Assembly: GCA_963422465.1 (NCBI GenBank)
Contig: OY730174.1
Coordinates: forward strand, 2,170,001 to 2,234,000
Direction of reading: 5' to 3'
Length of the DNA stretch: 64,000 nucleotides
DNA from: Lichina pygmaea
Lineage: Eukaryota > Ascomycota > Lichinomycetes > Lichinales > Lichinaceae
The position numbers and the translations under genes were made by a program. Below the pieces are notes generated by a model, which worked only from the letters and a program-made list of their open reading frames with translations, was not told the DNA's origin and made no database searches. Below are positions 32,723-36,016 of the stretch, piece by piece. The number at the start of each line of letters is the position of its first letter. Within the stretch, counting starts at the first letter, position 1.

Positions 32723-35201
32723 ACTAGACGAGCCGAATGGCAGGTGCACTCGCACGTCTGTCGGCGATTGCGGCCAGCGAAAGGCTTGGACCATCACGGA
32801 CGGCACGAATGGACACGGACGGATGGTCTTGGAGGAGAAGGACCGTCCAACGGCTGCACAGCGATCGCGGGCCGTTCCCTGGCCCCATGTCAGTTCGCGC
32901 CACCGGCCGGCAGCATCGCAGCTCTCTCTCCGTCTCGTCGCCCCTTGCTACTGCTACCGTATCGACGGCGCGGTCATCCCCTACGTCGTTGGGTGCAACC
33001 ACTGTACGTATGTACGACGGCACTACGTACGGGTTGGCAGCCCATTGACAGACATGACAGGATCAGCGGGGGCAGGCAGTGTCAAGTCGGCTTGCTGTCT
33101 GTTGCGCGATGACGTGGTCTGTGCTCAGTAAAGTACGGTGCAGTAGAAAGAACGCTGCTATTCCTGGATCATCTTGGCCCACACATGTCGTCAAAGGTCT
33201 CAGGCTGCCCCCAGCAACGACCCATACAGTAGTGTAGGAGTACTCTGAGCTACTGGTACTGCAGAGTGGGGTTTGGCCGGGCCATACCGGTACGATACGT
33301 ACTCACGTGTGGACCTCGTATGAGTGGTGGCGTACCGGTCAGCTGACGGAGGCGGCCATGGCCGTTTCCCTGTCGGAGGATTCGTGTCACCCCGCTTGAA
33401 GCTATGTACTGTATGTAGCTCAGTGTGTGCATCGTCGGGAGGAAGGCCGATCACCGTCGGGTGCGCAGTCAGCCCAACTGCACACAAATGGTCCAAGACG
33501 CAGTAAGATACGCACTGACATCTCCGTTCCCACTAGTCTTTCGTCCGAGAGCTCGAGCCATCTTCACCGGCAGCCTTGAGCTGGGTTGGTTCACGGCAAT
33601 GAAGGGGGGATGTGGTAGCCAGGGAAGCACAGCCGGTGCATCGGGATGTCGGAAGGAAAGTGCTTGCTGCTATGGATTTGTATCTCGGAAGCAGCCAGCC
33701 GGGATCGTCTACTTTTACTCCGAGCCTGAGCCAGACGTGGTCGAGTCCAAGACCTGTCAGGCCCTCTTCTCTCGATGAGGTCTCCTGTCAGAAGGCCCAA
33801 CCGTCTTGGGCAAAAGACCCGACAGGCCTGATCAGGTGATCAGAACCGCCGTCGGCTGTAACATCTCCCTACTGTACTAAAAATAAAAGTACTCCGTACC
33901 ATGAGTCCCGGCCACGTACTGTAACATTACGGTCGCCCTCTGCTTTATCATGCATCGTCCCTCTCCCATCGACAACGCCGCGTAGAAGCTTGAGATGCGG
34001 TGACCTGACAGGAACTTGCTATCTTTTACCGTACTAGTTACCTGCCACAAGCGACAGACTCCAAAGGAGAAGAAAGAAAGAAACAGGACAGGGTGGGAGG
34101 AACACTCACCGGGTACGTACTGTACGTACTGTACGTACCTCGGAGGGGCAAGTCCGGCGGTGGTCCAGAGGGGAGCAAGACTGTTGATCGAAGCCCTGTG
34201 TGTACGAAGGTACTGGGGGGCCTACAAGTATACGGTACGAGGTGGGTGACGGATACAGTAGTACTACGAGTATCTGTAAGCTGAGAAACCAGCTACCATG
34301 TCAAAACACTGAGCCACCGACTCACCGTGGAACCTGGTGGATTTCTCGAGAATTGTGATAATGCGGCTCTGCGACCGATTCTCGCCTCTACGGTACGTAC
34401 TCCTGCAAAACGTTACTCACCAACCTCGAACGTATGTACTTACGTACGTAACGTACATACGTACTGTACTTCGTAGGCCTTGGTGGCTGGCTGACTAAGC
34501 GAAGTAGATACTGACTAAGCTGATTGGAGACTGGCTGACCACTGACTAAGCAGCCTGACTACCCGTAGTGACCACGTACTGATGATGCTGTCACTATCAC
34601 TATTCTTAAATGATGTGTAAGCCTGGCCGCGCGCGTCGGGAAAACAAAAACAGACAATTACTCCGGTAACCCCCCTCTATGCACGTATCTTACTTCGGAC
34701 AATTACTGCCGTACCCCCCGGTATGCAGATTCCTTACTTCGGTGCCCCCCCCCCGTGCTCCCCTCTTACTGTACTTCCATGCCCCCCCTTCGCTTAGCAT
34801 AAGTACTTCTAGCTCTGTGGCACTCCGTACAAGAACTAAGTACTACTACTAAACTTCTGGGCCATCACCCACCGACCGCCCAACTCCACACCACTCACAA
34901 AGTCCCCGAAAATACCGTTACCATACATGACATCGAAAATGAGATTTGGCTTGATAGACCTAGAGCCGGGCATTGGATGCGACTAGGAAAAAAATGCGAC
35001 CGAAGAATGTAGGCTGTGTGGTGCTCCCAGGACTTATGAAGCGCATACCTTGCTCGACTTGAAGAGATACCTAGGTTCATATGGTGTGGCTCGGCAAAGC
35101 ACATGTACTGATTTATGCGGGGCGGCATGGAAGTACGAGGGGGGCACCGAAGTAATATACGTGCCTAGTGGGGGGGTACCAAAAACCGCCATTCCCAGCT
35201 G
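32723..35201. other. 2.5-kb intergenic region left of the Mutator-like element
   Basis: No supported gene. GTAC words cluster near 33005-33030, 34113-34140 and 34432-34475. The word TGACTAAGC recurs several times between 34489 and 34555. A C-rich patch of about 34673-34790 contains near-repeats of TTACTTCGG followed by C runs. Confidence 0.55.
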
Positions 35202-36006
35202 GGGTGCCGTTATCACGACACCCACTTCTTTTAGCACGACACCCAAGGTTTTGTTAGCACAACACCCATCGTTAGCTTTGTTGACATGATAGTGTTGTTA
35301 ACACAACACCACCTTTTGGCATTGTTAGCATGACACCTTATATCTATAGTACGGTACATGTTTAGTTGTTAGCTAGAATATTCCTTTGCAGTCAACACAC
35401 CGTAATCCATCATTCTTTGAGCTTGTTGAGAGACAGGGAAGGGGAAGAGGAGGGGGACAGAGACATCAACAAGGACAAGGACAGGGAGGACCAGGCAGGG
35501 GCATCACAGCTCCAGCCATTGTCGGGGGGGACATCAGGGGAAGGAGGGGCATCATAGCTCCAGCCATTGTCGGGGGGACATCAGAGGAAGAAGAAGTATC
35601 ACAGCTCCAGCCATCATTGGGGGGAACATCAGAGAAAGGAGGGGCATCGCAGCTCCAGCCGTCATCGTGGCCAGGGGCAGGAACATCGTAGCTTCAGGCA
35701 TCGTCAGGCCAGACTTTGTCGGAGCCAGAGATATCGTGAGGTTGAAATTGACTTGGCCTTACCAGTGCTGTGGTCTTCTGTGCTGTGCCTTCTCATTGAC
35801 TGGATAGAATCTGTAGAGTATCTTAGCCGGCGACCATGCCAAGGATCTAGGAGAGGTGTCATGCTAACAACGCTAAAATGTGGTGTTGTGTTAACGACAC
35901 TAAAAACTTAGATGGGTGTCATGTTAACAAAGCTAACGATAGGTGTTATGCTAACAAAATCTTGGGTGCCGTGCTAAAAGAAGTGGGTGTCGTGACCACA
36001 ACACCC
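35202..36006. mobile_element. Non-autonomous Mutator-like DNA element with long terminal inverted repeats
   Basis: Left inverted repeat about 35202-35338 and right inverted repeat about 35854-36006. Read in opposite orientation they align nearly end to end, differing by roughly a dozen substitutions, nearly all transitions, plus one indel of about 17 bp. The flanks carry a 10-bp near-identical direct repeat: TTCCCAGCTG at 35192-35201 and TTCCCGGCTG at 36007-36016, a likely target-site duplication. Long inverted repeats with 9-10 bp duplications are the mark of the Mutator-like superfamily. The 515-bp interior encodes no transposase; it holds a 48-bp tandem repeat. Each inverted repeat is itself built of GGTGTYRTGYTAAC-like subrepeats every 20-35 bp. 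Foldback element is the alternative label. Confidence 0.82.
35501..35700 (+). repeat. 48-bp tandem repeats inside the Mutator-like element
   Basis: Copies begin at about 35501, 35549, 35596, 35644 and 35683, each starting RCATCRYAGCTCC-like and carrying GTCGGGGGGACATCAG-like sequence. The spacing of 48, 47, 48 and 39 bp and the lower identity of the last copy show decay. In one frame (about 35386-35691) they read as a 16-residue repeat with phrases such as APAIVGG, but there is no sign that it is a gene. Confidence 0.88.
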
Positions 36007-36016
36007 TTCCCGGCTG

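Follow-up and report, generated by a model that had tools for sequence, protein, structure and literature searches.

The question raised by this locus is what kind of element occupies positions 35202-36006 of the window, by which we mean the whole stretch of 64,000 nucleotides analysed here. A sequence-only reading had described a non-autonomous Mutator-like element with inverted repeats built from subrepeats, a near-identical 10-bp direct repeat at its limits and a 48-bp tandem array in an interior free of transposase. The interpretation as a Mutator-like non-autonomous element is supported by the analyses reported below. The element is 805 bp in length and its parts are as follows.

35192..35201, no strand: left target-site duplication, 10 bp, TTCCCAGCTG, 9/10 against the right copy, in register
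35202..35338, plus strand: left terminal inverted repeat, 137 nt, five recognised subrepeats (inverted-repeat and motif search)
35377..35691, plus strand: open frame, 104 codons plus TAG, the first part homologous to the C-terminus of the MULE transposase (NIPLQSTHRNPSFFELVERQGR...)
35497..35660, plus strand: 48-bp tandem array, 3.4 copies, within the transposase-tail remnant
35692..35853, plus strand: 3' non-coding stretch common to sister copies (alignment with the copies)
35854..36006, minus strand: right terminal inverted repeat, 153 nt, six subrepeats (inverted-repeat and motif search)
36007..36016, no strand: right target-site duplication, TTCCCGGCTG (read directly)

The inverted repeats proposed at 35202-35338 and 35854-36006 were confirmed as two arm pairs, an outer one of 88 nt (35202-35289/35919-36006, 90% complementary) and an inner one of 49 nt (35290-35338/35854-35902, 92% complementary), which jointly make up the repeats of 137 and 153 nt. 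Long terminal inverted repeats, a trait of MULEs, are thus present. The element starts with GGGTGCCGTTATC and ends with GACCACAACACCC. The proposed direct repeat and the tandem array were found as described. A second inverted-repeat structure adjoins the element upstream (34665-35180; 34-nt arms at 88%, two further pairs), and a GACAATTACTGCCGTACCCCCC stretch that resembles it by eye lies beside a family end at C1:3333.7 kb.

The genome containing the window (32.47 Mb, eight contigs) was searched with the element, yielding at least 47 matches, and 16 candidates were scored. At least four copies including the window element are full-length, the other three being 77-88% identical to it by BLAST: C1:3618134-3618939 (88%), C3:534109-534924 (84%) and C3:486402-487135 (77%). 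Partial copies were located on C3 and C7, and a query taken from the variant at C3:4454 kb returned more ends and pairs (33 matches), among them the pair C4:614431/615059. Across aligned columns, the five two-ended window-type copies share 87.3-95.8% identity (10 pairs), while identity is down to 84.1% in pairs involving the halves of a split copy. The near-palindromic terminal 22-mer (up to three mismatches) was found at 37 genomic places, some of them internal units, compared to two for a control pattern. The sister copies share the ends, in line with the prediction of multiple genomic copies with identical end bases. A host structural repeat or a chance palindrome, with no transposon involved, would agree with the repeat-rich region and the adjoining structure at 34665-35180, but the occurrence of copies elsewhere in the genome, with shared ends and duplicated target sites, makes this explanation extremely unlikely.

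For the target-site duplications, the flanks of nine two-ended elements were compared in register at lengths of 8-11, with limits placed by eye according to the canonical ends; p is the raw best value over these lengths and the threshold was p ≤ 1.4e-3. A duplication of 9-10 bp in register was observed for six of the nine: the window element (9/10), C3:0.486 (9/9), C3:2.04-2.06 (10/10), C2:1.612 (8/9, p 1.1e-4), C1:3.618 (7/9) and C7:1.995 (7/9). None of 72 mismatched flank cross-pairs reached the threshold (lowest p 3.5e-3), and among 144 controls with swapped orientation two did so (best 3e-5). The predicted duplications of 9-10 bp at the copies therefore held for these six elements but not for the remaining three, C3:0.534, C3:4.640 and C1:4.266. 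Shifting the left flank of C3:4.640 one base earlier by eye still gave no duplication, and C1:4.266 has degraded ends with flanks that, by eye, are similar only out of register. Duplications of 8-11 bp are given as a MULE trait in the sections of PMC6446971 considered here, and the same six elements show it while the three do not.

A profile search of the genome with PF10551 had a single match, at C2:4277477-4277743, where one in-frame stop interrupts the matched sequence. Transposase_mut (PF00872) gave no match in the genome. In Pfam, the C2:4277 transposase matches MULE (PF10551, E 3.4e-12) and the ZSWIM1-3 RNaseH-like domain (E 4.7e-9), both above the cut-off. Searches with protein pieces of this transposase led to one further core relic at C1:2445 kb, and judged by these sequence matches the transposase core survives as two relics, at C2:4277 kb and C1:2445 kb. 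The N-terminal piece was found at 26 genomic places including itself, compared to two for the core pieces, which reflects either many N-terminal relics or a shared domain.

Comparison of the interior of the window element with the 3' coding end of the two relics resulted in scores of 82 and 97, above the maxima of 200 shuffles each (45 and 56) and the scores of the reverse complement (27 and 36). The sister copies C1:3.618 and C3:0.534 scored 99-110 against the transposase coding DNA, and shuffle maxima across the window and sister comparisons ranged from 44 to 57 (200 shuffles). In view of the simple composition of the transposase tail, the first 66 nt of the window frame, which are not repetitive, were tested separately. 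They scored 48 against each relic, at the corresponding place in both, and 0 of 1000 shuffles scored as high for either relic. Among 1912 other 66-nt tiles of the window, none was as high against C2:4277 and one was against C1:2445. The frames translate as IPLQSTHRNPSFFELVERQGRGRGGGQ (window), LPLQSTRPNQSYFEIVERGGGQRGGQG (C2:4277) and MALQSMRRNPSYFEVVEVHGRGRGQ (C1:2445). With low-complexity filters off, tblastn matched the window tail at 65% over 40 aa (E 7e-9); the same search also returned stretches outside elements (loci L039 and L042) at E ~1e-7 to 1e-8, so that this protein match is not strong alone. A further match to the tail (53% over 104 aa, E 2e-26) is found at C2:763 kb, a locus at which no arms could be recognised. 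The units of the array are spaced 47 and 48 bp apart; owing to the one spacing of 47 bp their reading frames differ, as would be the case in a relic.

From this homology, the element carries inside it the C-terminal ~100 codons of a MULE-domain transposase as a 3' coding remnant. The earlier statement that no transposase lies inside was therefore inexact with regard to these codons. The assignment to the Mutator-like superfamily is supported by this homology to the C-terminus of a PF10551 MULE-domain protein. The sequence from the left arm to the coding tail is unbroken in the window copy, C1:3.618, C3:0.486, C3:0.534 and C3:2.06, which points to a single founding deletion followed by spread. 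The copies illustrate how a non-autonomous family can arise via internal deletion with the transposase tail retained.

The sequence-only reading had also expected an autonomous copy with a MULE transposase between the same ends. In the genome searched, no transposase was found between the element's exact ends, only the two core relics, and the existence of a mobilising partner is accordingly inferred. The MULE gene at C2:4277 was rejected as this partner: its left end bears a weak family resemblance (2 of 300 shuffles as high), its right end is unconvincing, and it is hence taken as a relative only. A 730-bp imperfect palindrome (80%) lies just upstream of this relic, at C2:4275762-4276491. 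An autonomous copy within the family ends at C2:1612-1617 kb was likewise rejected; the interior there is an eIF2B-gamma-like frame, and the transposase pieces had no tblastn match in it.

Duplications of roughly such a length are not confined to Mutator elements, and the duplication typical of hAT and P is 8 bp. An element of another superfamily with 8-10-bp duplications (hAT, P, Merlin) could have acquired a MULE coding fragment, which would agree with the missing MULE transposase between these ends. The 8-bp duplication of hAT and P was not observed, as the six duplication-bearing elements have the longer form of 9-10 bp, and the MULE-protein coding remnant is at the same place in the copies compared; we regard such an acquisition as improbable.

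Taken together, the copies with shared ends, the duplications and the homology to the transposase tail make a Mutator-like deletion derivative the most likely interpretation. The element is very probably a non-autonomous Mutator-like element that derives by internal deletion from a MULE-coding ancestor and was mobilised in trans. In the full-length ancestor, the MULE-domain transposase would have ended in a C-terminal tail rich in Gly, Arg and Gln and encoded by repeats. Through an internal deletion, presumably a single founding one, all except the last ~100 codons would have been lost, with the composite inverted repeats on both sides spared. A transposase supplied in trans, perhaps of the lineage of the relics, would then have copied the derivative through the genome, cutting at GGGTG...CACCC with 9-10 bp of the target duplicated upon insertion, and the subrepeats of the composite arms are its putative binding sites.

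Both arms are built from units around GGTGTYRTGYTAACA. Allowing up to three mismatches, this motif has 12 matches in the element, six in each of the right-type and left-type orientations; the left-type match at 35991 is the near-palindromic end unit seen from its opposite strand. Dinucleotide shuffles of the element (n=300) gave 0.17 matches on average and a maximum of 3, and the 64-kb window minus the element contains only two (13691 and 43414), which bears out the claim of subrepeat-built inverted repeats. In element coordinates, the subrepeats lie at 7, 28, 51, 95 and 122 in the left arm and at 654, 681, 714, 741, 764 and 785 in the right arm. C1:3.618 has six units in each arm at spacings of 21-27 bp, whereas the arms of the window element contain five and six units, two of the gaps being wider (44 and 33); the C1:3.618 unit at position 78 is missing from the left arm of the window element, next to an 8-nt deletion. 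In the remaining copies of the window type, each arm contains five or six recognised units, compared to one to three in the variants C2:1.612 and C3:4.454. The C2:1.612 left arm contains two recognised units and its outer limit is still at the target duplication, which is consistent with unit loss by recombination between units. In the copy at C7:364 kb (C7:364.3 kb; L035:4300-4668), a perfect tandem array of 16 x 23 bp derives from the arm subrepeat, a case of a transposon end expanding into a minisatellite.

Tandem arm subrepeats in variable number are the mark of Foldback-type elements and are found in this family. Composite variable arms define the Foldback (FB-like) class, in which arms lengthen or shorten by slippage or recombination between subrepeats, regardless of the transposase. 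The differing unit numbers in C1:3.618, in the window-type copies and in C2:1.612 and C3:4.454, the perfect 23-bp array and the short C2:1.612 arm bounded by its target duplication all agree with this, and in our judgement the chances are even that Foldback is the better label, one that overlaps with the Mutator reading. According to the parts of PMC3169594 considered here, Foldback is a structural class and FB-like families house different transposases. Such a label leaves untouched the Mutator origin, for which the coding remnant is the evidence.

Within this Mutator-like interpretation, the closest structural precedent is Tm1, a Mutator/Foldback family of root-knot nematodes (PMC3169594, parts considered). 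Both families have composite inverted repeats with tandem units in variable number; the Tm1 duplications of 8-10 bp, mostly 9, are comparable to the 9-10 bp found here, and Tm1 has a MULE-domain transposase, just as the tail of the window family derives from a MULE-domain protein. Tm1 derivatives have lost the MULE domain and kept patches 200-600 bp 3' of it, similar to the window family. However, the Tm1 units are 13-15 bp long and differ in sequence from those of the window family, which are mostly 21-27 bp long, and the hosts belong to a different kingdom than the fungal host studied here. Tm1 also features asymmetric terminal 7-mers and a FLYWCH-type zinc finger, neither of which was seen here: by eye, ends of the form GGGTG...CACCC and other units were found instead of the 7-mers A1/A2 and the 13-15-bp motif C, and the four transposase pieces scanned, which represent part of the gene, contain no FLYWCH. 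The family thus works like Tm1 but is not filed as Tm1.

Among fungi, VdMULE1-3 of the filamentous ascomycete Verticillium dahliae share the PF10551 MULE transposase with the window family, but their inverted repeats of 73-86 bp are shorter than the window arms, and they are coding elements of 3.4-3.6 kb; the portions of PMC3441728 considered here do not describe a deletion-derivative family of the window type. Of the three, one is listed with an 8-bp duplication; for the Verticillium Class II elements collectively, a legend in the supplement speaks of direct duplications internal to the inverted repeats, and Hop1 of Fusarium oxysporum is named among fungal MULEs (same source, same portions). 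The Hop group is a fungal Mutator-like lineage, as is the window family. Its ascomycete-only subgroups have arms of 22-99 bp and a mixed plant/oomycete/fungal subgroup arms of 30-220 bp (PMC6446971, Table 1); composite arms, in contrast to the window family, are not noted in the sections of that paper considered. The same sections describe Rehavkus and aphid Phantom, in which a minisatellite is located in the C-terminus or downstream of the transposase frame, similar to the repeat-coded tail of the window family, and which have 8-10-bp duplications as well; these have animal hosts, and Rehavkus carries a PHD finger. A narrow literature search of incomplete coverage found no report of foldback- or MITE-type Mutator elements in ascomycetes, and the novelty in print of a composite-arm fungal Mutator family is not established. 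The present data add a supported family of this type for what is probably a filamentous ascomycete, to judge by a DUF3425 protein on C2, a GH17 match below its cut-off and the general character of the transposase.

The imperfect duplications and arms and the copies interrupted by inserts are signs that the element is old, and the family is presumably inactive now. The C3:2.04-2.06 Mb copy is split by an insert of ~19 kb (C3:2043065-2062114), read over its outer parts on either side of the middle ~9 kb, that starts with TG and ends with CA between CCTGG repeats and has LTR-like direct repeats of 485 bp (92.6% alike). The C7:1.995 Mb copy contains an insert of 745 bp (L034:3956-4700) with inverted repeats of ~270 bp (90.7% alike) and TA flanks. 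Repeat-induced point mutation was considered and rejected, as the indices give no clear signature: TpA/ApT was 0.74-0.89 in six of seven sequences, compared to 0.71 for the window, and 1.20 in the seventh, a left-arm fragment, while a second index was 1.12-1.35 compared to 1.05. A mild transition bias is possible, with transitions exceeding transversions in 20 of 20 comparable pairs (for instance 46 to 18 for the window element and C1:3.618).

The element is of an ordinary kind, save for its repeat-built ends and one relative that seemingly encloses an essential gene. This relative, at C2:1612278-1617166 (L031:2779-7667), consists of a pair of family ends that span 4.9 kb and are flanked by an 8/9-bp duplication. 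Between the ends lies a frame of 557 codons, whose hexapeptide domain matches eIF2B gamma in PDB (best E 3.1e-23); the first part of the gene presumably lies in the neighbouring frame, which Pfam did not recognise. A frame of the epimerase family is located immediately beyond the right end. A genome search with the frame yielded itself and two weak matches (27%, E 7e-5; 31%, E 0.04). The left 0.9 kb of the element, followed by 200 bases of N, includes a stretch of 472 bp that is 85% like another end-bearing locus on C2 and is thus probably native element sequence. Either the locus is one element that captured the genome's only close eIF2B-gamma-like match found, which we consider possible but rather doubtful, or two independent ends flank the gene and the duplication is due to chance. 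Capture, if true, would mean that an essential translation gene resides within a Mutator-type transposon, enclosed by the transposon's ends and its target duplication, and would make housekeeping-gene relocation by a fungal Mutator element testable. Our literature search found no report of essential-gene capture by fungal Mutator elements; for a hAT element in a fungus, the capture of histone H3 is described in the parts of PMC6710886 considered.
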